From positions 1 through 34,961 of the forward strand of contig CAMAKJ010000003.1 in assembly GCA_945836055.1 (NCBI GenBank): 34,961 nt of DNA, given 5' to 3'. The notes below the pieces were generated by a model, which was not told the DNA's origin, made no database searches, and worked only from the letters and a program-made list of their open reading frames with translations. This DNA is from an uncultured Clostridia bacterium (GTDB lineage Bacteria; Bacillota; Clostridia; Oscillospirales; Oscillospiraceae). This document shows positions 14,672 to 28,280 of the stretch, piece by piece; within the stretch, counting starts at the first letter, position 1; each line of letters begins with the position of its first letter. The position numbers and the translations under genes are program-made.

Positions 14672-15211
14672 ATGACAGAAGAACAGATGCTCACCCTGGC
14701 TTATGCCGAGGGCTTCGCCGCCGCAGCGGTACTCGACACGTCGGAAATCGTCTTTGACCCGGCTTTCCGCCCCTACTGCGAGGAAAACCTCTGCGGGCAG
14801 TACGGCGTGAACTACGCCTGCCCGCCGGACTGCGGCTCCCCGGAGCAGATGAAGCAGAAGGTGCTCGCCCATAAAAAGGCGCTGGTGCTGCAGACCATCT
14901 GGCAGGTCGCGGACTTTTCCGATACACCAGCCATCAAGCAGGGAAAAGCTTCCCACAACGCCGCCGCCCTTCGCCTGATGAAGTCCTTGCGGCAGCAGGG
15001 CTGCGACGGATTTCTGGTAGGCGCCAGCGGCTGCGCCCTGTGCTCTCCCTGCGCCAAGAAAAGCGGCGAATCCTGCCGCTTTCCGGAGCTGCAATACTCC
15101 TGCATGTCCGCCTACTGCGTTTTCGTCAAGAAGCTGGCGGACGCGTGCGGCATGGAATACGACTGCGGCGACGGACTGATTGCCTTTTTCGGAATGTATG
15201 TCTTTGATTGA
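14672..15211 (+). CDS. DUF2284 Cys-rich predicted metal-binding protein
   Basis: Cys motifs: YCEENLCGQYGVNYACPPDCGSPEQM, GASGCALCSPCAKKSGESCRFPELQYSCMSAYCVF. Confidence 0.82.
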   Translation: MTEEQMLTLAYAEGFAAAAVLDTSEIVFDPAFRPYCEENLCGQYGVNYACPPDCGSPEQMKQKVLAHKKALVLQTIWQVADFSDTPAIKQGKASHNAAALRLMKSLRQQGCDGFLVGASGCALCSPCAKKSGESCRFPELQYSCMSAYCVFVKKLADACGMEYDCGDGLIAFFGMYVFD

Positions 15212-15225
15212 TTCCTATAGCCGCT

Positions 15226-15256
15226 GCCCCCCATTTCCGGATCGGAAATGGGGGGC
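15226..15256. terminator. Strong hairpin between convergent genes
   Basis: Perfect 14-bp stem GCCCCCCATTTCCG-GAT-CGGAAATGGGGGGC; no clear U-tract on either side. Confidence 0.55.
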
Positions 15257-15266
15257 ATGTTTCGTA

Positions 15267-16739
15267 TTACAGGTTGGTATAGCCCATCAGGCTTTCATCC
15301 ACCACGGCAGCCGTGTCCCGGCCCTCCCGCAGCGCCCACACCACCAGGCTCTGGCCCCGGCGCATATCGCCGCAGACAAAGACCTTTGGCTGGTTCGTGG
15401 CGTATTTCACATCCGCCACATTGCCTCTGGCCGTGCGCTCCACGCCGAAGGCATCGGCCACATAGCTCTCGCAGCCCACAAAACCTGCGGCAATCAGCAC
15501 CAGATCGCACTCCACGGTGAATTCCTCGCCGGTGGGTACCATCATACGCCGTCCGTCCACAACCTTGCTTTCCAGCCGGGCGATCAGCGCGCCGCAGACC
15601 TTTCCCGCCTCGTTCTTATAGAACTCCTTGACGGTGGTCTGGTACTTCCGGGGATCCCGGCCGAACACCGCAATGGCTTCCTGCTGGCCGTAGTCGGTTT
15701 TGAGAACCCGCGGCCACTCCGGCCAGGCGTTGCCGGGGGCACGCTGTGCCGGCGGGCAGGGCATCATTTCCAACTGCAAGATGTCCGTACAGCCCTGGCG
15801 GATGGCGGTGCCCACGCAGTCGTTGCCCGTGTCGCCGCCGCCGATGACCAGAACCTTCTTGCCCTGGGCCGAGATGGCTTTCCCATCGGCAAAGTTAGAG
15901 TCCAGCAAGCTCTTGGTCACGCTGGTGAGATAGTCCACGGCAAAGTGGATGCCCTCGGCGTCCCGTCCGGGAACGGTGATATCCCGGGGCTGCTTGGCGC
16001 CGCAGCACAGCACCACCGCATCGAAGCTGTCCAGCAGCTCCTGGGCAGGCACATCCCGCCCTACGTCAGCGCCGGTGACGAACTCGATGCCCTCTTCCTC
16101 CAGAATCTTTACCCGGCGGTCAATGACCCACTTTTCCAGCTTCATATTGGGAATGCCGTACATCAGCAGTCCGCCCACCCGGTCGGAGCGCTCGTACATG
16201 GTCACCTTGTGGCCCCGCTTGTTCAGAAGATCGGCAACGGACAATCCGGAGGGGCCGGTGCCCACCACCGCAACCCGCTTGCCGGTTCTCGCCGGTGGGG
16301 GAACCGCGTGGATCACGCCGCTTTCGTAGCCGTACTCAATAATCGCCCGTTCATTTTCCTTCACCGCCACGGGACTGCCGGTGGCCATGCCGCAGGTGCA
16401 GGCGGCTTCGCACAGGGCCGGACACACCCGGCTGGTAAACTCCGGGTAGCGGTTGGTGGCAATCAGCCGCTTGGCCGCCAAATCCCACCGTCCCTGATAC
16501 ACCAGGTCATTCCATTCGGGAATCAGGTTGTTCAGGGGGCAGCCGCTGGCCATGCCGCCGATCATCATGCCGCTCTGGCAGAAGGGCACGCCGCAGTCCA
16601 TACACCTGGCACCCTGGGCCTGCTGCTCGTCGCAGTGCAGCGGAATATGAAATTCATTGAAATTTTGGATTCTCTCTTCGGGAGCAATCTCCTGGCTGGT
16701 CTGCCGGGAAATCTCCATAAATCCGGTCGGTTTTCCCAT
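15267..16739 (-). CDS. gltD: Glutamate synthase small subunit
   Basis: 490 aa: MGKPTGFMEISRQTSQEIAPEERIQNFNEFH, QGARCMDCGVPFCQ, CPLNNLIPEWNDLVY, VAVVGTGPSGLSVADLLNKRGHKVTMYERSDRVGGLLMYGIPNMKLEK. Confidence 0.97.
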   Translation of the reverse strand: MGKPTGFMEISRQTSQEIAPEERIQNFNEFHIPLHCDEQQAQGARCMDCGVPFCQSGMMIGGMASGCPLNNLIPEWNDLVYQGRWDLAAKRLIATNRYPEFTSRVCPALCEAACTCGMATGSPVAVKENERAIIEYGYESGVIHAVPPPARTGKRVAVVGTGPSGLSVADLLNKRGHKVTMYERSDRVGGLLMYGIPNMKLEKWVIDRRVKILEEEGIEFVTGADVGRDVPAQELLDSFDAVVLCCGAKQPRDITVPGRDAEGIHFAVDYLTSVTKSLLDSNFADGKAISAQGKKVLVIGGGDTGNDCVGTAIRQGCTDILQLEMMPCPPAQRAPGNAWPEWPRVLKTDYGQQEAIAVFGRDPRKYQTTVKEFYKNEAGKVCGALIARLESKVVDGRRMMVPTGEEFTVECDLVLIAAGFVGCESYVADAFGVERTARGNVADVKYATNQPKVFVCGDMRRGQSLVVWALREGRDTAAVVDESLMGYTNL

Positions 16740-16751
16740 AGTTCCCCCTCC

Positions 16752-19700
16752 TTACTTTCCGTTTTTCATGGCGTAAAACGCCTCAATCTGCGCTTGCTCG
16801 CTGTCCTGCCCCTTTTCTTCCATCTGGGCGATGAGGCGGAGCATCTTATCGTAGTCATGGGGCAAGACCTTTTTGAACTTAGGCAGATATTCGCCGAAAT
16901 TCTCCAGAATTTCCCTGCCACGGGGAGAGCCGGTGGCCTCCACATGCTCCCGGATCAGGTCCTTCAGGAGGGATACGTCATACTTGTGCTCCACGCTCTC
17001 AAGGGAAACCATGTCCTTGTTCACCCGCAGATAGAAGTCCCAGTCCTCGTCCAGCACATAGGCGATGCCGCCGCTCATGCCAGCGGCAAAGTTCTTGCCG
17101 GTTTTGCCCAGCACCACCACGGTGCCGCCGGTCATGTATTCGCAGCCGTGGTCGCCCACGCCCTCCACCACGGCGGTGGCGCCGGAGTTGCGGACGCAGA
17201 ACCGCTCGCCCGCCACGCCGCTGACAAAGGCCTTGCCGCCGGTGGCGCCGTAGAGGGCCACGTTGCCGATGAGAATGTTCTCGCTGCGGTCATAGGTCAC
17301 GTTCTCCGGGGGATACACAATGAGCTTGCCGCCGGAAAGTCCCTTGCCCAGATAGTCGTTGCTGTCGCCAATCAGCTCCAGTGTCATGCCCTTGGGAATA
17401 AATGCGCCGAAGCTCTGGCCGCCGTAGCCGGTGCAGGTGACGTGGAAGGTGTCGTCCGGGAGGGTATTGCCGAATTTCGCGGTGATTTCGCTGCCGAAAA
17501 TGGTGCCGAAGGCCCGGTCCGTGTTGCCCACCTCCATGGCAACGGTCATGGGCTTGGGCTGGGGGCTGTCGAAGTTCTTTTTGAACTTTTTCATCAGAAC
17601 CCTCATGTCCGGAGTTTGCTCCAGCCTGAAATCATAAACCGACTTGGGGTCGAAATGGACGTTGCCGTTCTCCACCAGAGGGTTGTGCAGCAGTCCGGAC
17701 AAATCCATTTCGCCGGCACGGGAACCGGCAGGCGCAGGGCGAACCTTCAGCAGATCCGTGCGGCCCACCAGCTCGTCCACCCTCCGTACGCCCAGCTTTG
17801 CCATGTACTCCCGCAGCTCCTGGGCCATGAAGCGCATGAAATTCATAACGTATTCCGGCTTGCCGATGAACTTCTTCCGCAGCTCCGGGTTCTGGGTGCA
17901 GATGCCCATGGGGCAGGTGTCCAGGTTGCACACCCGCATCATCACGCAGCCCATAGCCACCAGCGGGCCGGTGCCGAAGCCGAATTCCTCCGCGCCCAGC
18001 ATGGCGGCGATGGCCACGTCCCGGCCGCTCATGAGCTTGCTGTCGGACTCGATGCGTACACGGGAACGCAGACCGTTCAGAATCAGGCACTGATGGGCTT
18101 CCGCGATGCCCAGCTCCCAGGGAAGGCCCGCGTTGTGGATGGAGGAATTGATGGAGGCCGCGCCGGTGCCGCCGTCGAAGCCGGAGATCAGAATGACCTC
18201 GGCACCGGCCTTGGCAACGCCCGCCGCGATGGTGCCAACTCCTGCCTCGCTCACCAGCTTGACATTGATGGCGGCATGGCGGTTGGCACACTTCAGGTCA
18301 TAAATCAGCTGGGCCAGATCCTCAATGGAGTAAATATCGTGGTGGGGCGGCGGGGAAATCAGACCCACACCGGTGGTGGAATTGCGGCACTTGGCGACCC
18401 AAGGGTAGACCTTGCCGCCGGGGAGCTGACCGCCCTCGCCGGGCTTGGCGCCCTGGGCCATTTTGATCTGAATTTCCTTGGCGGAGACCAGATATTTGCT
18501 GGTCACGCCGAACCGGGCGGAGGCCACCTGCTTGATGGCGGAGTTCCGCTCCGTGCCGTAGCGCTCCTCGGCCTCGCCGCCCTCGCCGGTGTTGGACTTG
18601 CCGCCCAAGCGGTTCATGGCGATGGCCAGGCACTCATGGGCTTCCTGGGACAGGGCGCCGTAGCTCATGGCCGCGGTCTTGAAGCGCCTGACAATGGAAT
18701 CCACGCTTTCCACCTCGTCAATGGGCACGCCGGTTTCGGGATAGTTGAAATCCAGCAGATCCCGCAGGTGCATATCGTCGCCGTCTTCGTTGGCTGCGGC
18801 GGCGGTGTACTGCTTGAACTTTCCGTAGTCCCCCGTCCACACCGCCTCCTGCAGCAGATGGATGGTCTGGGGATTATAGAGGTGCTGCTCCGCTTCCGCG
18901 CCGCTGCGGAACTTGTGGAAACCCACGCTGGGCAAATCCATGTAGATGTCCAGCCCCAGGGGGTCAAAGGCCTGCTGGTGGCGGTCCTCCACGTCCTTCT
19001 GGATGTCGGCGATGGTAATGCCGCCCACCCGGCTGACAGTGTTGGTGAAATACTTGTCGATGACCTCCTTGCTGATGCCCACGGCCTCGAAAATCTGGCT
19101 GCCCTGGTAGGACTGGATGGTGGAAATGCCCATTTTGGAGGCGATTTTCACAATACCGGCCAGAACCGCCCGATTGTAGTCGTCCACGGCGGCATAGTAG
19201 TCCTTGTCAAGCAGTCCGTCGTCGATGAGGCTGCGGATGCTGTCCTGTGCCAGATAGGGGTTGATGGCGCAGGCGCCGAAGCCCAGCAGGGTGGCAAAAT
19301 CGTGGACAAGCCGGGGCTCGCCGCTTTCCAGAATCAGCGCCATAGCGGTGCGCTTGCGGGTACGCACCAGGTACTTGGACACCGCGCTCACCGCCAGCAG
19401 ACTGGGAATAGCCACGTGGTATTCGTCGATGTCCCGGTCGGAGAGGATCAGAATGTTGGTGCCGTCCCGGTAGGCCCGGTCAACGTCCACGAACAGCCGG
19501 TCAATGGCCCGCTCCAACGGCGTATTTTTATAGTAGCAGATGGACACCGTCTCCACCTTGAAGCCGGGTACGTCCATGGTCTTGATTCTCAGCAGATCGG
19601 TTTCCGTCAGGATGGGGTTGTCGATTTTCAGAACCTTGCAGTTGTCCGCGTTCTCCTCCAGGAGATTGCCCTGGGCGCCCACATACACCGTGGTGGAGGT

Positions 19701-21305
19701 GACGATCTTCTCCCGCAGGGCGTCGATGGGCGGGTTGGTGACCTGGGCGAACATCTGCTTGAAGTATTCAAACAGGGGCGGGCGGGTATGGCTGAGGACG
19801 GCCAGGGGCGTATCGGCACCCATGGCCCCGGAAGGCTCCGCGCCGTTTTTCGCCATGGGGAGCATGATGTTTTTCAGGTCCTCATAGCGGTAGCCGAAGG
19901 CCTTCTGCAAGCGCACCATTTCTTCTCTTGTATAGGAGGGAATCTTCCGGTTGGGCACCTTCAGGCTGGAAAGGGTCACCAGATTCCGGTCCAGCCATTC
20001 GCCGTAGGGCTGGCGGCCGGCGTACTCCGCCTTCAGATGCTCGTCATCCACCAGCTCGCCTTTCACCGTGTCCACCAGCAGCATTTTGCCGGGGCGAAGA
20101 CGGTCCTTACGGACGATCTTTTCCTGGGGAATATCCAGCACGCCCACCTCGCTGGACAGAATCAGCCGGCCGTCGTCGGTGATGTAGTAGCGGCTGGGAC
20201 GCAGGCCGTTGCGGTCCAGCACCGCGCCCATCACGTCGCCGTCGCTGAACAGAATGGAGGCCGGGCCGTCCCAGGGCTCCAGCATGGTGGCGTAATACTG
20301 GTAGAAATCCCGCTTTTTGGAGTCCATGCTCTTGTTGTTGCTCCAGGGCTCGGGAATGGTGACCATCACCGCCAGGGGCAGATCCATGCCGTTCATCACC
20401 ATGAATTCCAGGGTGTTGTCCAGCATGGCGGAGTCGGAGCCGCCCTGATTCACGATGGGCAGCACCTTGGTCATGTCGTCCTTCAGAAAACGGCTGCCAA
20501 TGGTCTCCTCCCGGGCCAGCATGGTATCCACGTTGCCCTGGATTGTATTGATTTCGCCGTTGTGGAGGATGAACCGGTTGGGATGGGCCCGGTTCCAGCT
20601 GGGGGAGGTGTTGGTGGAAAACCGGCTGTGCACCATGCCGATGGCGGATTCATAGTCCGCATCCTGCAGGTCGGGATAAAACAGCCGCAGCTCCTTGACC
20701 AGGAACATGCCCTTATACACGATGGTGCGGCTGGACAGGCTGCAGACGTAGGTCTCCTGATTGGACTGCTCAAAGACCCGGCGTACCACATACAGCCGCC
20801 GGTCAAAGTCGATGCCGGCCTTCATCCGGGGCGGCTTGCCCACAAAGGCCTGCCAGATGCTGGGCATACAGTCCCGGGCCTTCTGTCCCAGAAACTCCGG
20901 GCACACCGGTACCTGGCGCCAGCCCAGGAAGGGCAGTCCTTCCTTTTTGCAGATGATCTCAAAGAGCTTTTTGGCCTGGTTGCGGAGCAGCTCCTCCTGG
21001 GGGAAGAAAAACATGCCCACGCCGTATTCCCGCTCGCCCCCCAGGGCAATGCCCGCAGCGGCAGCCGCTTTCGTAAAGAACTTGTGGCTGACCTGCAGCA
21101 GAATGCCCACGCCGTCGCCGGTTTTTCCCTCGGCATCCTTGCCGGCCCGGTGCTCCAGATGCTCCACAATCTGCAGCGCGTCGTCCAGCGTCCGGTGGCT
21201 CTTTCTGCCCTTGATGTCCACAACCGCGCCGATGCCGCAGTTGTCGTGCTCAAACCGGGAATCGTACAGCCCTGCCGGGGTTGTGCGCTCGGTAAAATTC
21301 TCCAT
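16752..21305 (-). CDS. gltB: Glutamate synthase large subunit
   Basis: MENFTERTTPAGLYDSRFEHDNCGIGAVVDIKGRKSH (GATase class II), central and FMN domains (GEGGEAEERYGTERNSAIKQVASARFGV, AQGAKPGEGGQLPGGKV, ISGFDGGTGAA), C-terminal GXGXG domain. Start trimmed to ATG 21303-21305. Confidence 0.97.
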   Translation of the reverse strand: MENFTERTTPAGLYDSRFEHDNCGIGAVVDIKGRKSHRTLDDALQIVEHLEHRAGKDAEGKTGDGVGILLQVSHKFFTKAAAAAGIALGGEREYGVGMFFFPQEELLRNQAKKLFEIICKKEGLPFLGWRQVPVCPEFLGQKARDCMPSIWQAFVGKPPRMKAGIDFDRRLYVVRRVFEQSNQETYVCSLSSRTIVYKGMFLVKELRLFYPDLQDADYESAIGMVHSRFSTNTSPSWNRAHPNRFILHNGEINTIQGNVDTMLAREETIGSRFLKDDMTKVLPIVNQGGSDSAMLDNTLEFMVMNGMDLPLAVMVTIPEPWSNNKSMDSKKRDFYQYYATMLEPWDGPASILFSDGDVMGAVLDRNGLRPSRYYITDDGRLILSSEVGVLDIPQEKIVRKDRLRPGKMLLVDTVKGELVDDEHLKAEYAGRQPYGEWLDRNLVTLSSLKVPNRKIPSYTREEMVRLQKAFGYRYEDLKNIMLPMAKNGAEPSGAMGADTPLAVLSHTRPPLFEYFKQMFAQVTNPPIDALREKIVTSTTVYVGAQGNLLEENADNCKVLKIDNPILTETDLLRIKTMDVPGFKVETVSICYYKNTPLERAIDRLFVDVDRAYRDGTNILILSDRDIDEYHVAIPSLLAVSAVSKYLVRTRKRTAMALILESGEPRLVHDFATLLGFGACAINPYLAQDSIRSLIDDGLLDKDYYAAVDDYNRAVLAGIVKIASKMGISTIQSYQGSQIFEAVGISKEVIDKYFTNTVSRVGGITIADIQKDVEDRHQQAFDPLGLDIYMDLPSVGFHKFRSGAEAEQHLYNPQTIHLLQEAVWTGDYGKFKQYTAAAANEDGDDMHLRDLLDFNYPETGVPIDEVESVDSIVRRFKTAAMSYGALSQEAHECLAIAMNRLGGKSNTGEGGEAEERYGTERNSAIKQVASARFGVTSKYLVSAKEIQIKMAQGAKPGEGGQLPGGKVYPWVAKCRNSTTGVGLISPPPHHDIYSIEDLAQLIYDLKCANRHAAINVKLVSEAGVGTIAAGVAKAGAEVILISGFDGGTGAASINSSIHNAGLPWELGIAEAHQCLILNGLRSRVRIESDSKLMSGRDVAIAAMLGAEEFGFGTGPLVAMGCVMMRVCNLDTCPMGICTQNPELRKKFIGKPEYVMNFMRFMAQELREYMAKLGVRRVDELVGRTDLLKVRPAPAGSRAGEMDLSGLLHNPLVENGNVHFDPKSVYDFRLEQTPDMRVLMKKFKKNFDSPQPKPMTVAMEVGNTDRAFGTIFGSEITAKFGNTLPDDTFHVTCTGYGGQSFGAFIPKGMTLELIGDSNDYLGKGLSGGKLIVYPPENVTYDRSENILIGNVALYGATGGKAFVSGVAGERFCVRNSGATAVVEGVGDHGCEYMTGGTVVVLGKTGKNFAAGMSGGIAYVLDEDWDFYLRVNKDMVSLESVEHKYDVSLLKDLIREHVEATGSPRGREILENFGEYLPKFKKVLPHDYDKMLRLIAQMEEKGQDSEQAQIEAFYAMKNGK

Positions 21306-21337
21306 AGCTTTCTCTCCTCTCGGTTGATTGGGACACG

Positions 21338-21388
21338 AAAAAAGGCGTTTCCGCGTATTTGGGCAAGCTTCGCCCACGCGGGAACGCC
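21338..21388 (-). terminator. Intrinsic-terminator-like hairpin in the gltB 5' leader
   Basis: Minus strand GGCGTTCCCGCGT-(GGGCGAAGCTTGCCC AAAT)-ACGCGGAAACGCC followed by TTTTTT; 12 of 13 outer pairs. Confidence 0.75.
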
Positions 21389-21404
21389 ATTGTTCTCTTT
21401 CGAT

Positions 21405-21433
21405 ATCATACCACAAAGTTCATCGCTTTACAA
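21405..21433 (-). promoter_or_regulatory. Candidate gltB promoter (TTGTAA-17-TATGAT)
   Basis: Minus strand: TTGTAA at 21428-21433, 17-bp spacer, TATGAT at 21405-21410. Confidence 0.6.
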
Positions 21434-21512
21434 TGCTAAAGAAACTCTCTTTTGTCCGGCGATCTTTGGTTCATTTGCCCAATTACCGTCGAAATTCCGG
21501 GAAACTGCCGGA

Positions 21513-22241
21513 TTACTTCCGGTTTTCCTTCTGCTTTTCCAGCTTCAGGTACATCTCCTTCAGATGCTCCGCCAGAGTGCTGTCCGAACGGAAGGGAGAG
21601 AAGAAGTGATATTTGGACGAAGCATTCTGCTGGAAGTTGCGGATGTGATCCTTGATGCTCTCGTACTTCACGATGACGGTATTCTCCTCGGCAAAGCGCT
21701 TGAGCTTGACAATCAGCTGGCTGGAATGGGCCACGTCGATGACAAACACGCCGTAGAACATGCCGATGAAGAAGGAAAAGGCCAGATTGTTGGACAGCCA
21801 GGCCAGGGCGTCCAGGATGTATGGATGCACAAAGAAGTAGTACAGCGCCCCCAGCACCGCCCAGAAGAAGGAAAACAGCGGGCAGATGATGCCCTGGACG
21901 TTGCCCCAGAGATCGGAATAATCCCACAGCCGGACCTTCAGGTACTTCAGGCAGAACAGGCCCGCCACATACTCAATCAGGGTCATGCACACCGCCATGG
22001 CGGCAAACAGCATCGCCTTGTTCCAGAAGGGGTTGGCAATCCAGTTCAGCCGCTCCAGAAGGGCCAGCAGAAACAGCGTACACAGGCCGAAGCCGTAAAT
22101 GGGCAGATACGGCCCGGTGCAGAAGCCGGGATTGACCCATTTTTGATGGCGGTGGGTCAGGTTCCGGTACAGCAGCTCCAGCACCCATCCCAGAGTGGAG
22201 CCGATTAAAAATAAAAATGCCAATACCAGCGCAAGATTCAT
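21513..22241 (-). CDS. Putative ABC-transporter permease (CmpB-type) multi-TM membrane protein
   Basis: 242 aa: MNLALVLAFLFLIGSTLGWVLELLYRNLTHRHQKWVNPGFCTGPYLPIYGFGLC...EYVAGLFCLKYLKVRLWDYSDLWGNVQGIICPLFSFFWAVLGALYYFFVHP, matching the CmpB/YpjP-like family pattern. Confidence 0.8.
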   Translation of the reverse strand: MNLALVLAFLFLIGSTLGWVLELLYRNLTHRHQKWVNPGFCTGPYLPIYGFGLCTLFLLALLERLNWIANPFWNKAMLFAAMAVCMTLIEYVAGLFCLKYLKVRLWDYSDLWGNVQGIICPLFSFFWAVLGALYYFFVHPYILDALAWLSNNLAFSFFIGMFYGVFVIDVAHSSQLIVKLKRFAEENTVIVKYESIKDHIRNFQQNASSKYHFFSPFRSDSTLAEHLKEMYLKLEKQKENRK

Positions 22242-22332: not shown

Positions 22333-22893
22333 TTACAGGCCGATGGCCCGGGTAAGCAGCAGCTCCGCCTTTTGGTTGAAGGCCTCCTGGGTGCAATGCA
22401 GGTTCCCGGCGAACCAGTCCTGGTACAGCTGGCTCAGGCCCCCGGCGCAGAAGCGGATCGACAGTTCAAACTCCTCACGGCTGGCAACCGCGAACTCCGA
22501 TTCATGCTCCAGCAGATAATCCACCACCACCGCGCACAGCTGGTCGCTGAGCTGCTTGGCGGCATGGGACGCCAGAATTCTCCGGTAGAAAGCCTGGTCT
22601 TCGTCCAGGATGGATTGGATTCGTCCCAGAAGAACGCCCGGCAGCGCTTCGATTGGGTAGGTCTGGTCGGACAGAACGTCCCGGATGCGGCAGAAAGCCT
22701 CCTCCACCATCTGATGAATCACGTCGGGGATGTCCGCATAGTGGGCGTAAAAGGTTCCCCGGTTGATTTCCGCCCGGTTCACCACGTCCGTCACCGTTAT
22801 TTTGTCCAGAGGCTTTTCCTGGAGCAGATCGGCCAGCGCCGCCTTGATGAGCCTCCGGGAGCGAACCGCGCTCCTGTATTCCGCCTTCGCCAC
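22333..22893 (-). CDS. TetR/AcrR family transcriptional regulator
   Basis: RRLIKAALADLLQEKPLDKITVTDVVNRAEINRGTFYAHYADIPDVIHQMVEEAF is a TetR HTH. GTG start at 22893 with RBS AAAGGGGGA; the longer ORF (to 23235) runs through the divergent promoter region. Confidence 0.88.
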   Translation of the reverse strand: MAKAEYRSAVRSRRLIKAALADLLQEKPLDKITVTDVVNRAEINRGTFYAHYADIPDVIHQMVEEAFCRIRDVLSDQTYPIEALPGVLLGRIQSILDEDQAFYRRILASHAAKQLSDQLCAVVVDYLLEHESEFAVASREEFELSIRFCAGGLSQLYQDWFAGNLHCTQEAFNQKAELLLTRAIGL

Positions 22894-22927
22894 GGGCAGT
22901 CCCCCTTTCAAAAATATACAGATCCCT

Positions 22928-22945
22928 GAAGTTTGTACAAAATTC
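22928..22945. promoter_or_regulatory. Candidate TetR operator palindrome
   Basis: GAAGTTTGTACAAAATTC, near-perfect 18-bp palindrome with perfect core TTTGTACAAA, in the TetR/RND divergent intergenic region. Confidence 0.5.
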
Positions 22946-22969
22946 GGCATATCCTGCCCAAATTGCTGC

Positions 22970-22998
22970 TTGCGCTTTTCCAGCAGGCCAATTATAAT
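22970..22998 (+). promoter_or_regulatory. Candidate promoter for the RND exporter (TTGCGC-17-TATAAT)
   Basis: TTGCGC 22970-22975, 17-bp spacer, TATAAT 22993-22998. Confidence 0.6.
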
Positions 22999-23019
22999 GG
23001 TCTCAATCAAAAAAGTCAA
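22991..23019 (-). promoter_or_regulatory. Candidate promoter for the TetR gene (TTGACT-17-TATAAT)
   Basis: Minus strand: TTGACT at 23014-23019, 17-bp spacer, TATAAT at 22991-22996; -10 shared with the plus-strand promoter. Confidence 0.65.
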
Positions 23020-23080
23020 CATTCGTTCAGTTTTGTCTTTGTGACGCATTTTGCCCCAAAGACAGCGTAAGGAGGATACT

Positions 23081-25543
23081 ATGTCAGAAAAGAAACCGCC
23101 GGACAGCAGCTTTATGACAAAGGTCGCCACATTCATTGTGGATAAGCGCACTTTGTTCTTCCTGCTGTACATATTCGCCATTATTTTCTGTGTGTTTTCC
23201 ACGGGTTGGGTGAACGTGGAAAACGACGTGACCACCTACCTGCCGGAGGATACGGAAACCCGGCAGGGCATCCTGGCCATGAACGAAAACTTCACCACCT
23301 TCGGCAGCGCCCAGGTCATGGTGTCCAACGTCACCTACGAGACGGCCGACGATCTGAGCCGGCAGATCGCGGATGTGGACGGGGTCAGCATGGTCACCTT
23401 CGACGACAGTGCCGACCACTACACCAGCGCTTCAGCGCTGTTCGACATCAGCTTCGACGGGCTGACCAACGACGAGAGCAGCCTGCAGGCCCTGAATGAG
23501 ATCAAGTCTCTTCTGGAGGGTTATGATTTCTGCGTGTACTCCGACGTTGGTTTCGATGAAAACGCCCAGCTTGAGGGAGAGATGACCGCCATCCTGATTG
23601 TGGCGGTGGTCATCATTCTGGTGGTGCTCACCCTGACCTCCCGCTCCTACGCAGAGGTGCCGGTGCTGATTATCACCTTCGCCGTGGCGGCGGTTCTGAA
23701 TATGGGCACCAATTTCCTGTTGGGAACCATCAGCTTCATTTCCAACTCCGTTGCCGTGGTGCTCCAGCTGGCGCTGGCCATCGACTATGCCATTATCCTG
23801 TGCCACCGCTTCACCGACGAGCGGGAGACCCGCTCCGCCCGGGAGGCCTGCATCACCGCCCTGAGCAAAGCCATTCCGGAAATCAGCGCCTCCTCTCTGA
23901 CCACGGTTTCCGGTCTCGCGGCTCTGGGATTCATGGAGTTCGGTATCGGCCTGGATATGGCGCTGGTGCTGATTAAGGCCATTTTGCTGAGTCTGCTGTC
24001 CGTGTTCACCCTGATGCCCGGGCTTCTGATGCTGTTCAGCCCCCTGATGGACCGCACCCGCCACAAAAAACTGCTGCCCAATGTTACGGTTCTGGGCAAA
24101 TTCGCGGTGAAAACCCGGCGCGTTGTTCCCCCGCTGTTTGCGGTGCTTCTGGTAGGGGCCTTCTACCTGTCCAACCGCTGCCCCTATGTCTACAGCTACA
24201 CCAATCTGGAAACGGCAAAAATGACGGAGCGTCAGGAGTCCTTCTTCAAAATTCAGAACACCTTCGGCACCAACAACATGCTGGCTCTGGTGGTACCCGG
24301 CGGCGACTATGAGGCGGAAGCCCGGGTCATGGAGGAGCTGGAAGCATGTCCTGAGGTCAAGAGCACCATGGGTCTTGCCAGCGTGGAACTCATGGACGGC
24401 TACCACCTGACCGACAGCCTCACCCCCCGGGAGCTTTCGGAGCTGGTGGGAATGGATTATGAGGTGGTACAGTTATTGTATTCCGCCTACGCCGTGGATC
24501 ATGACCAGTACGGCGAAATCCTCCAGGGCCTGGACAAATACGACGTTCCCCTGTTTGATATGCTTCTGTTCGTCAAGGATCAGTTGGAGCTGCGGAACAT
24601 CAATCTGGAGGGCGAGGATCAGCAGACCATGGACGACCTGTTCGCCCAGCTGGACAGCGCCCGGAAGCAGCTGAAAAGCGACCGCTACAGCCGTATGGTG
24701 GTCTACCTGAACCTGCCTGAGGAAAGCGACGAAACCTTCGCTTTCCTGCAGCACATCCGGGACATCCTGGGCAAATACTACGACGGAGACTACTATGTGG
24801 TGGGCAACTCCACCAGCTCCCGGGATCTGGCCTCCTCCTTCGTCAAGGACAATCTGCTGATTTCCATTCTTTCCTCCCTGTTCGTCATTCTGGTGCTGCT
24901 GTTCACCTTCCAGTCTGCGGGGCTGCCTCTGCTGCTGATTGTGTGTATCCTGGGCAGTATCTGGATCAATTTCTCCTTCCCCACACTGATGAATCAGCCG
25001 TTGTACTTCCTGGGCTACCTCATCGTGCAGGCCATCCAGATGGGCGCGAACATTGACTACGCCATCGTCATTTCCAGCCACTATCAGGAGCTGAAAACCA
25101 CCATGCCCCACAAGCAGGCCATCGTGGCGGCGCTGAACGCGGCCTTCCCCACCATCTTCACCTCCGGCACCATCATGTCCGCCGCCGCGCTGCTCATCGG
25201 CAATATGTCCGCCCAGCCCGTCATCGCCATTCTGGGCACCTGCCTGGGCCGGGGCACCATCGTCTCCATCGTCATCGTCCTGACGGTGCTGCCCTCCATC
25301 CTCGTGCTCAGCGATTCCATTATCAACCGCACCTCCTTCAAGATGAAGGGCATTGAAATTCCCACCAAAACCGCCAGCGGCACCATGTATGTCAGCGGCC
25401 GCCTCCGGGGTCAGGTCAGCGGTATGGTGGACGGCGAATTCACCGGCGTGATCCGGGGCGACATGAACGCCACCATTTCCACCAGCACCAAGATACAGCA
25501 GCTTGATGATCACCAGGAGAAAGGAGGCGAAGGCAATGCGTAA
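23081..25543 (+). CDS. RND superfamily (MMPL-type) exporter
   Basis: Two repeats of an RND/MMPL TM bundle (SRSYAEVPVLIITFAVAAVLNMGTNFLLGTISFISNSVAVVLQLALAIDYAIILCHRF; IQMGANIDYAIVISSHYQELKTTMPHKQAIVAALNAAFPTIFTSGTIMSAAALLIG). RBS GGAGG before ATG 23081. Confidence 0.92.
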   Translation: MSEKKPPDSSFMTKVATFIVDKRTLFFLLYIFAIIFCVFSTGWVNVENDVTTYLPEDTETRQGILAMNENFTTFGSAQVMVSNVTYETADDLSRQIADVDGVSMVTFDDSADHYTSASALFDISFDGLTNDESSLQALNEIKSLLEGYDFCVYSDVGFDENAQLEGEMTAILIVAVVIILVVLTLTSRSYAEVPVLIITFAVAAVLNMGTNFLLGTISFISNSVAVVLQLALAIDYAIILCHRFTDERETRSAREACITALSKAIPEISASSLTTVSGLAALGFMEFGIGLDMALVLIKAILLSLLSVFTLMPGLLMLFSPLMDRTRHKKLLPNVTVLGKFAVKTRRVVPPLFAVLLVGAFYLSNRCPYVYSYTNLETAKMTERQESFFKIQNTFGTNNMLALVVPGGDYEAEARVMEELEACPEVKSTMGLASVELMDGYHLTDSLTPRELSELVGMDYEVVQLLYSAYAVDHDQYGEILQGLDKYDVPLFDMLLFVKDQLELRNINLEGEDQQTMDDLFAQLDSARKQLKSDRYSRMVVYLNLPEESDETFAFLQHIRDILGKYYDGDYYVVGNSTSSRDLASSFVKDNLLISILSSLFVILVLLFTFQSAGLPLLLIVCILGSIWINFSFPTLMNQPLYFLGYLIVQAIQMGANIDYAIVISSHYQELKTTMPHKQAIVAALNAAFPTIFTSGTIMSAAALLIGNMSAQPVIAILGTCLGRGTIVSIVIVLTVLPSILVLSDSIINRTSFKMKGIEIPTKTASGTMYVSGRLRGQVSGMVDGEFTGVIRGDMNATISTSTKIQQLDDHQEKGGEGNA

Positions 25544-28244
25544 CGTTTTCAAGCGGGCGTCCGCTCTGATTCTCTGCCTGCTTCTGTGCGCCTGCCTGCC
25601 CCTGACGGCGCTGGCGGAGGAAACCGGCGATACCGGCAGGGTGCTGCGGATTTTCCGGAAGCAGCAGTTCCTGGAGCTGGCGGAAAGCTGCCGCCTGGAC
25701 AGCTACAGCCAGGATCTGACCGTGGTGCTCATGTCCGATATCGATCTGAAGGAAGCCGATTTCGGCGGCATTCCTATCTTCTGCGGCACCTTTGACGGAA
25801 ACGGCCACACCATTTCCGGCCTGTCCGTCACCGCGGATGGCTCCAACATGGGTCTTTTCCGGTATCTTTCCAAAACCGGCGTGATTCGGAATCTGAAGGT
25901 TACAGGCACCGTCGCCCCCGGGGGCAGCGCCTCCGCCGTGGGCGGAATCGTCGGAAGCAATGGCGGAACTGTTCAGAACTGCACCTTCTCCGGCCTCGTG
26001 TCCGGCGTGGATGACGTGGGCGGAATCGTGGGTATCAACACCGTGGACGGCATCGCGGAGGACTGCCAGGCTGGCGGAACCGTCACCGGCAGCCACCGGG
26101 TGGGCGGCATCGTCGGCCATAACAAAGGCGTCGTCCGCGCCTGCACCAACAGCGCTCAGGTGAATACCACCGCCGAGGAAAACAAGGTCAATCTCTCCGA
26201 CATCACCCTGTCCACCATCACCGGCACGGAATCCGCCAATACGGTGACGGATATCGGCGGCATCGCCGGTTCCAGCAGCGGTGTGATCCGGGACTGCAAA
26301 AACCGGGGCGACGTGGGCTACCAGCACATGGGCTACAACATCGGCGGCATCGCCGGTACCCAGACCGGTTATGTGTACCAATGCGAAAACAGCGCCCGGG
26401 TCTACGGGCGCAAGGAAGTGGGCGGCATCGTCGGCCAGATGGAGCCTACCACCTTCATTGAATACACCGCCGATACCCTGCAGATTCTCCAGGGGCAGCT
26501 GAATACCCTGGGAAATCTGACCAATCAGGCGGTTTCCAGCGTCCAGAGCAGCACCTCCAGCCTCACCGGACAGGTGGATCAGCTGCACAATGACATTCAG
26601 AATGCCAAGGACGCCCTGGATTCTCTGAAGCCCAGTCTGGATCCCCCCTACGTTCCCGACCTGGACACCATCGAAGCGGCAAGAAATAACCTCAGCAGCA
26701 GCCTGTCCGACATGAAAACCTCCCTGAGCGGCATGGTGGATTCCACCCAAAGCTCCATGGACTCTCTGAACCGGACCCTGCGCGCCATCTCCTCACAGGT
26801 AAGCGCCATGAGCGCCACCATCGGCAATGCCTCGGAAAATCTGGGCGGTGCCATTGAGGACATCTCCGATCAGGATACGGACGCCATTCTCTCCGGAAAG
26901 GTGGAAAGCTGCAGCAACACCGGCGCCGTGCTGGCCGACCGGAACGCGGGCGGCATCGTGGGCGCCATCGCCCCGGAAAATGACCTGGACCCCGAAAGCG
27001 ACGTCATGGTCACCGGCGACAACTCCATGAATTTTGACACCCAGCTGCGAGGCGTCATCCGCGGCTGCCAGAATACGGGCAGTGTCACGGTCAAGCGGCA
27101 GAACGCGGGCGGTATCGTGGGCTGGATGGCTCTGGGTCTGACCCGGGACTGTCTCAGCACCGGCTTCCTTGACGCCGGGAACGCCGACTATGTGGGCGGC
27201 ATTGCCGGGCAGAGCAGCGGATATATCCGCTCCTGCAGCGTCAAAGCCGCCATAGACGGCAGCGCCAGCGTGGGCGGCATCGCCGGAAAGGCCGTCACCG
27301 TCACCGACTGCCGCAGTATGGTGAATCTGACAGGCTCCGAAAAAACCGGCGCCGTGCTGGGGGTGCGGGAGGAAGCCTACGGTATCCTGGACGCGGAGGA
27401 CGACGGTTCGGAGGGAGAGCAGACGGAAACCGTCGCCGGCAACTACTATCTTGCAGTGGATTCCGACATCGGCGGTATCGACGGCGTCAGCTACGCCGGA
27501 TGTGCCCAGGGCCTGACGGAAACGGAATTTGCCCAGCTGGAGGGGCTGGACCCGGTTTTCGAGACCGTTTCCATCCGCTTCCTGTTTGACGGCGGCGCGG
27601 TTTACACCGTATCCCTTGCCCCGGGTCAGGCACTGTCTCCCGACCGGATTCCCGAGCTGCCGGCGAAAGAGGGCTATACCTGCTACTGGGACGGTCTGGA
27701 TGATGCAGACCTCACCGCCATCGGCTTTGACACCACCTTCCGGGCCGTGTACCTGGCGGAAAAGAAAACCGTTCAGAGTGAAGATACCCGTGAAAACGGC
27801 CTGCCCGTTCTGCTGGCCGAGGGTCAGTTCTCCGGCGACGAGCCCATTTCCCTGACGCCAATGGAAAAGTGGCCGGGCCTGGAGATTGACGAAACCTTCC
27901 TGGAAGGCTTCACCTTTACACTTCCCGGGGGAACCTGCAGCGCCCTTCGGTATCTGCCGGAAAATGCCTGGGAGGCAAAGACGGACCGGGTGTATGTCCA
28001 GGGCGCGGACGGCGCTTGGCGGGAAACGGAGGTTTCCCGGGATGTCAGTTACCTTGTGTTCTCCGTGCAGGCGGGAGATCAGGCCTTCTGCATCGTCCGC
28101 ACGGCTCCGGAATTCCCCACGGCGGTTGCCGCCGCGGCTGGCGCGGGCGCCGTTGCGATTATCCTGGCGGCAGCTCTGCTGATTCACCGCCGGAATAAGC
28201 GGAAAAAGGCGAAAGCCGCCTCAGAGGAAGCAAGCAATCCATAA
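25536..28244 (+). CDS. Secreted/surface-anchored GLUG-repeat protein with internal coiled-coil insertion and C-terminal TM anchor
   Basis: Signal peptide (MRNVFKRASALILCLLLCACLPLTALAEE), many VGGIVG/IGGIAG GLUG motifs, Ser/Leu-rich coiled-coil segment (LQILQGQLNTLGNLTNQAVSS...SSSLSDMKTSLSGMVDS...ISSQVSAMSATIGNAS), C-terminal TM with RRNKRKKAK. Overlaps the RND stop codon by 8 bp. Confidence 0.88.
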   Translation: MRNVFKRASALILCLLLCACLPLTALAEETGDTGRVLRIFRKQQFLELAESCRLDSYSQDLTVVLMSDIDLKEADFGGIPIFCGTFDGNGHTISGLSVTADGSNMGLFRYLSKTGVIRNLKVTGTVAPGGSASAVGGIVGSNGGTVQNCTFSGLVSGVDDVGGIVGINTVDGIAEDCQAGGTVTGSHRVGGIVGHNKGVVRACTNSAQVNTTAEENKVNLSDITLSTITGTESANTVTDIGGIAGSSSGVIRDCKNRGDVGYQHMGYNIGGIAGTQTGYVYQCENSARVYGRKEVGGIVGQMEPTTFIEYTADTLQILQGQLNTLGNLTNQAVSSVQSSTSSLTGQVDQLHNDIQNAKDALDSLKPSLDPPYVPDLDTIEAARNNLSSSLSDMKTSLSGMVDSTQSSMDSLNRTLRAISSQVSAMSATIGNASENLGGAIEDISDQDTDAILSGKVESCSNTGAVLADRNAGGIVGAIAPENDLDPESDVMVTGDNSMNFDTQLRGVIRGCQNTGSVTVKRQNAGGIVGWMALGLTRDCLSTGFLDAGNADYVGGIAGQSSGYIRSCSVKAAIDGSASVGGIAGKAVTVTDCRSMVNLTGSEKTGAVLGVREEAYGILDAEDDGSEGEQTETVAGNYYLAVDSDIGGIDGVSYAGCAQGLTETEFAQLEGLDPVFETVSIRFLFDGGAVYTVSLAPGQALSPDRIPELPAKEGYTCYWDGLDDADLTAIGFDTTFRAVYLAEKKTVQSEDTRENGLPVLLAEGQFSGDEPISLTPMEKWPGLEIDETFLEGFTFTLPGGTCSALRYLPENAWEAKTDRVYVQGADGAWRETEVSRDVSYLVFSVQAGDQAFCIVRTAPEFPTAVAAAAGAGAVAIILAAALLIHRRNKRKKAKAASEEASNP

Positions 28245-28247
28245 CCT

Positions 28248-28280
28248 ACCGGCCGTCCATCCTGGACGGCCGGTTCTTTT
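28248..28280 (+). terminator. Intrinsic terminator after the RND-GLUG operon
   Basis: Perfect 12-bp stem ACCGGCCGTCCA-TCC-TGGACGGCCGGT followed by TCTTTT. Confidence 0.9.

Follow-up and report, generated by a model that had tools for sequence, protein, structure and literature searches.

A TetR-associated MMPL-type RND exporter and its GLUG-repeat partner protein, a probable export machine of Clostridia

Introduction

An exporter gene that overlaps the gene of a large secreted protein raises the question of whether the two products work as one machine or merely share a transcript. Such an arrangement lies at positions 22333-28244 of the stretch of DNA analysed here (34,961 nt, the window): a TetR-type regulator gene, a divergent gene for an MMPL/HAE3-type RND exporter, an overlapping gene for a GLUG-repeat protein and a strong terminator. 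To our knowledge, RND exporters of Gram-positive gut bacteria have hardly been studied beyond the actinobacteria. A preliminary description, made from the sequence alone, had suggested an undescribed system in which the GLUG protein could serve the exporter as an extracytoplasmic partner, adaptor or scaffold, and all elements that it named were re-examined. Within the literature searched the system is indeed undescribed, with no paper joining the GLUG motif and MMPL and none on an RND-GLUG pair.

Results

Composition of the locus

The composition originally read from the sequence is confirmed, as all three proteins score above the Pfam cut-offs (Table 1). The tetR frame remains open to 23235, and the start taken, a GTG codon preceded by the Shine-Dalgarno sequence AGGGGG, is the likely one; the RND gene is preceded by AGGAGG. 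The 8-bp overlap of the RND and GLUG genes is present at 25536-25543, and translational coupling, which had been deduced from it, is likely. It is however not the sole route to translation, since the GLUG gene carries a strong AGGAGG of its own, eight bases ahead of its ATG, and its translation thus need not depend wholly on coupling. The hairpin that closes the operon is the strongest terminator of the region, in agreement with the preliminary description.

Table 1 Features of the TetR-RND-GLUG locus, in positions of the window.
Feature	Position	Strand	Evidence
TetR-family regulator, 186 aa	22333..22893	-	Pfam TetR_N 25.5 bits (cut-off 24), TetR_C_8 32.2 bits (cut-off 26.1)
Promoter-like site for tetR, TTGACT-17-TATAAT	22991..23019	-	11/12 consensus match; shared intergenic region
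MMPL/HAE3-type RND exporter, 820 aa	23081..25543	+	Pfam MMPL (PF03176) 135.9 bits (cut-off 20.5), E=2e-39
First Asp-Tyr pair, D235-Y236, MmpL3 proton-relay motif	23783..23788	+	invariant, 114/114 residue-bearing rows
Second Asp-Tyr pair, D659-Y660	25055..25060	+	invariant, 115/115 rows
RND cytosolic C-terminal tail, glycine-spaced beta-repeat pattern	25337..25540	+	kept in 95/121 relatives
Shine-Dalgarno AGGAGG of GLUG gene, within RND gene 3' end	25522..25527	+	sequence reading
GLUG partner, 902 aa, secreted and anchored	25536..28244	+	Pfam Glug (PF07581) 52.5 bits (cut-off 20.5), four stretches, E=3.7e-14; AlphaFold2 mean pLDDT 81
Signal peptide, residues ~1-27	25536..25616	+	hydrophobic N-terminus ending ALA-EE; conserved in relatives
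GLUG beta-solenoid part 1, residues 35-311	25638..26468	+	model, pLDDT mostly >90
Helical bundle / coiled-coil insertion, residues 314-432	26475..26831	+	four helices in model
GLUG beta-solenoid part 2, residues 439-611	26850..27368	+	model
C-terminal beta domain, residues 636-856	27441..28103	+	model
C-terminal TM anchor, residues 862-888, then basic cytosolic tail	28119..28199	+	model helix
Intrinsic terminator of operon	28248..28274	+	12-bp stem, 9 G-C pairs, then TCTTTT

Elsewhere in the window, an open frame of 2342 aa (15180-22208, plus strand) runs antisense to a glutamate-synthase-like gene (16752-21416, minus strand) and beyond, and is probably a by-product of codon bias and no gene. 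The gene adjoining tetR (21513-22241, minus strand) encodes a membrane protein of Pfam family ABC_trans_CmpB (PF06541), which is not kept as a neighbour of the RND-GLUG pair among the loci of relatives. A defence system was considered and rejected, PADLOC having matched nothing but the coiled coil in a chance-like manner.

The two genes occur together

Rare co-occurrence of RND and GLUG genes in other genomes had been named at the outset as the result that would contradict a partnership, and the reverse was found, decisively, in three samples. Among 99 relatives, mostly of the same genus, full-length GLUG homologues all lie directly 3' of an RND homologue, contig ends excepted, with two paralogous pairs in some genomes; of 20 strong RND matches in nearer relatives, a single one has a partner without the GLUG part. 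A class-wide sample of 245 genomes chosen by the RND alone gave 29 matches above 900 bits, including the window's own, the next ones remaining below 320 bits per stretch, and in 28 of the 28 relatives above 900 bits the GLUG gene follows directly downstream (25 adjacent, 3 fused). Conversely, when loci were chosen by GLUG alignment with one genome per species, the RND gene lies directly upstream in 79 of 80 loci, including one fusion (5 of the 79 assigned as adjacent or fused by inspection), and the exception is cut by a contig end. As the second sample was chosen by the RND and the third by the GLUG protein, the dependence holds in both directions.

Across 121 distinct RNDs, 114 are adjacent to the partner, four are fused to it and three behave otherwise: L149 is adjacent with a long N-terminus, the partner of L057 is truncated, and L063 is the only RND of the family truly without one. 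L057 is apparently a degraded pair in which the RND tail is gone, as is the N-terminal GLUG part of its partner, and L062, where fragments of both genes are all that is left, likewise appears degraded. Within the class, about one in eight of the sampled genomes carry the pair; elsewhere in the phylum it is found in few. Its carriers are mainly gut and rumen Oscillospiraceae and Lachnospiraceae, among them Roseburia inulinivorans DSM 16841, Gemmiger formicilis ATCC 27749 and Acetatifactor muris DSM 23669.

Fusion, overlap and joint divergence

Four proteins combine both partners in one chain: L166 (2003 aa), L167 (1912 aa) and L168 (1921 aa), from three species of one genus, and L141 (2152 aa), which belongs to a clade with a lipid-carrier-like domain (see below). 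In these fusions the former signal peptide has become an additional TM between the RND and GLUG parts. L166-L168 form one supported clade in the tree, far from L141, and fusion has thus occurred in at least two separate events; a sequencing error is excluded for the former by the three species, whereas L141, standing alone, could be one. Judged from these chains, the fusions would imply a 1:1 stoichiometry of RND and GLUG protein. With start codons chosen by a script, 89 of the 114 pairs that could be measured show an overlap of the two genes, most commonly of 8, 4, 11 or 14 nt. Pairwise distances among RNDs correlate with those among their partners (r = 0.83, maximum after shuffling 0.08), a value that includes shared species history, as common ancestry contributes to the correlation.

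The GLUG partner

In the AlphaFold2 model of the GLUG protein, a helical bundle interrupts the beta-solenoid and a TM anchor lies near the C-terminus, where it is conserved in complete relatives. A secreted, membrane-anchored protein of about 900 aa is thus what the preliminary description had seen, but its "long coiled coil" comprises no more than about 120 aa in four helices. This insertion is modelled as a hairpin or four-helix bundle in the window protein, and its length is highly variable among relatives, being far longer in other members. Foldseek returned no match below E=0.001 for the whole model; weak matches were obtained with the SRRP solenoid for the GLUG model and with PMEI four-helix bundles for the insertion. 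There is no MmpS-type match in Pfam or NCBIfam, and the window protein lacks a carrier domain of the LolA/LppX/LprG kind.

The RND exporter

The MMPL match of the exporter falls into two stretches that correspond to the two MMPL halves, and relatives are 46-71% identical to the window RND. In contrast to Pfam, the curated NCBIfam models are not reached: the RND scores 131.3 against the actII MMPL model TIGR00833 (cut-off 874.7) and 124.6 against the HAE3 model TIGR00921 (cut-off 351.9), and HpnN, BstA and MmpL3 are far under their cut-offs. Each half carries an invariant Asp-Tyr pair; the equivalent pairs of MmpL3 are thought to be proton carriers (PMC10466384). The C-terminal tail that follows the last TM is absent from all four fusions and from one basal clade. 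It is perhaps bactofilin-like, in view of weak and statistically non-significant matches to Bactofilin in three of seven RND tails (best E=0.027, none for the window tail) and to the bactofilin 6ria (E=0.042). The tail is also weakly similar to the T4 gp5 spike.

A LolA-like domain in one clade

In 19 relatives, about one in six, the TM of the partner is followed by a second TM and some 400 further residues, with the extra domain outside by topology and confined to one sister clade of the tree. It has no Pfam or PDB sequence match, and its likeness to LolA carriers is seen by fold comparison only. Such likeness to LolA, LppX and LprG was predicted before the comparison, which agreed: an AlphaFold2 model (pLDDT 83) matches LolA, LprG and LppX (probability 1.00, E from 5e-5 to 5e-4) as well as RseB (E=5e-6), at moderate target-normalised TM-scores, mostly 0.43-0.51 for single-domain carriers. 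Because the order of elements repeats, the domain apparently consists of two LolA-like units in tandem. LppX and LprG act in PDIM and glycolipid transport (PMC8427324; PMC4709180); PDIM translocation requires LppX together with MmpL7, and LprG is a glycolipid-binding protein in contact with MmpL11 (PMC8427324). As the window protein lacks this domain, which is limited to one clade, the observation concerns the family's substrate class and only indirectly this locus, for which the model-based link to lipids would be one of kinship.

More distant exporters of Clostridia

Distant MMPL exporters of Clostridia have a secreted partner directly downstream in 18 of the 22 loci examined, of 570-770 aa and starting within about 120 bp of the RND stop, with no Pfam family above cut-off among those scanned. 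In L064-L072, L182-L188, L191 and L192 the downstream secreted protein is partly coiled coil, of two sequence types and free of GLUG. Exporters that we term CC2 and type 3 share gene order and overlap with the window locus, but their partners have other C-terminal motifs in place of GLUG repeats, and their RNDs are only remotely related, scoring less than about 520 bits with the profile of the family. Of the four loci without such a downstream partner, two, L189 (5129-9172) and L190 (4764-8972), encode RNDs (1347 and 1402 aa) in which helical units of about 85 aa are repeated in tandem in the second extracytoplasmic loop, the loop that in MmpL5 holds a coiled-coil insertion of 196 aa (PMC12501195). 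One seemingly similar unit is found at about residues 440-545 of the window RND. By analogy, such pumps may in general require an extracytoplasmic helical element, provided either in cis or in trans.

Regulator and neighbours

Of 107 loci, 50 have a TetR gene in the 1.5 kb upstream, in divergent orientation in 46. The promoter-like site shares the core ATTATAATG between the window and the relatives L041 and L043, and no convincing palindromic operator is common to the intergenic regions of window and relatives. In L043 (4690-5600), a GDSL-hydrolase-like gene is positioned between tetR and the RND gene, which is not general. Apart from TetR, no neighbour recurs beside the pair in the loci of relatives, biosynthetic genes included, so neighbour genes were ruled out as a clue to the substrate.

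Discussion

Adjacency in both directions, fusion in two lineages and correlated divergence support the original proposal of the GLUG protein as an extracytoplasmic partner of the exporter. Sequence data can hardly give firmer support to the view that the two constitute a single functional unit, and very probably they form one export machine of Gram-positive bacteria with no earlier description in the literature searched. The locus as a whole appears, with reasonable confidence, to be a self-contained module under TetR control, which exports an amphipathic or lipid-like molecule and has the GLUG protein as its obligate extracytoplasmic scaffold; substrate and conduit are the inferred parts.

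We propose that the system operates as follows. Most likely, TetR keeps the operon repressed in the absence of a membrane-active ligand, either the substrate or a mimic. The GLUG protein very probably stands in complex with the RND, on the outer face of its porter domain. Export of amphipathic or lipid-like molecules is likely, considering the family and the carrier domain of relatives, and on balance we favour a pump that would take such a molecule from the outer leaflet by proton antiport. More tentatively, the GLUG solenoid and the helical insertion might lengthen the pump across the thick wall, serving as scaffold or conduit, of which a conduit is a plausible reading. With similar hesitation, we suggest that the separate GLUG protein could take the role of the coiled-coil insertion that MmpL5 carries in cis.

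The variant belongs to the RND/MmpL kind and is not categorically new. Its nearest solved chains are MmpL4, MmpL5 and MmpL3 (E down to 2.6e-14), which makes the early comparison to an MmpL with an accessory protein apt. The MmpL5-MmpS5 and MmpL4-MmpS4 systems, the nearest solved structures, similarly have an operon-encoded extracytoplasmic accessory, a coiled coil outside the membrane and a dedicated regulator, and export amphiphiles driven by protons, as is inferred here (PMC12501195). MmpL5 needs both its coiled-coil insertion, for efflux, and its operon partner MmpS5, for activity (PMC12501195). However, MmpS is a small Ig-like protein, whereas the GLUG partner is a 902-aa solenoid with a C-terminal anchor, and the helical element is inserted in the RND itself in MmpL5 but resides in the partner in the window locus. 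The pairs MmpL7-LppX, MmpL11-LprG and LprG-Rv1410 (P55) join exporters to carriers of the LolA/LppX fold, a fold that is matched within the partner in one clade of relatives; there it is a TM-tethered C-terminal domain, whereas the known carriers are separate lipoproteins. HpnN and BstA, transporters of hopanoids and sterols, are of the same RND superfamily with weak model matches, and are described without a GLUG partner. The likeness to tripartite pumps of the AcrAB-TolC type, an RND motor with an extracytoplasmic extension, is one of analogy: an HlyD match is at chance level (E=0.079, far below cut-off), no outer-membrane channel gene was found beside the locus, and no adaptor or channel recurs in the neighbourhoods of relatives.

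Alternatively, the pump may serve detoxification, expelling toxic amphiphiles of host or diet such as bile acids, fatty acids or antimicrobials that are sensed by TetR, with the GLUG protein stabilizing the pump or carrying the toxin past the wall. A TetR gene in divergent orientation is typical of inducible efflux, the carriers come from animal guts and rumens, no biosynthetic gene recurs beside the pair, and MmpL5 doubles as siderophore exporter and drug pump (PMC12501195). Yet the lipid-carrier domain of relatives better fits the delivery of a lipid made by the cell, and the regulator is not universal among the loci, so that we regard detoxification as possible but somewhat doubtful.

Two further readings concern the GLUG protein itself. 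Many other surface proteins of these genomes also contain GLUG repeats and the solenoid is weakly similar to the SRRP adhesin, as expected for an independent adhesin or wall protein that only shares the transcript; this is, however, difficult to reconcile with near-obligate pairing, gene overlap, fusions in two lineages and correlated divergence, and we consider it very improbable. Even less credible is that the GLUG protein is cargo, exported or folded at the surface by the RND. Such a role would agree with one-to-one pairing, but the protein has its own signal peptide and TM anchor, for which Sec suffices, the two are one chain in the fusions, and the closest RND relatives of solved structure transport small amphiphiles.

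In a wider perspective, and as a conjecture that we hold to be rather unlikely in its full form, Clostridia might possess a thick-wall RND architecture of their own, in which an MmpL-like pump is combined with a dedicated extracellular element, encoded downstream, as wall-spanning conduit, handing lipids to a built-in LolA-like carrier in some lineages. The element could, equally conjecturally, be a GLUG solenoid, a secreted protein with a coiled coil or a set of helical repeats in tandem within the pump. If true, this architecture would represent a Gram-positive counterpart of the tripartite RND pumps.

In conclusion, the conserved pair makes the partner needs of MmpL-type pumps testable, and its presence in commensals such as R. 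inulinivorans, G. formicilis and A. muris does the same for the transit of amphipathic or lipid-like molecules across a thick wall. The lipid-carrier domain of relatives provides a concrete lead to the substrate class.
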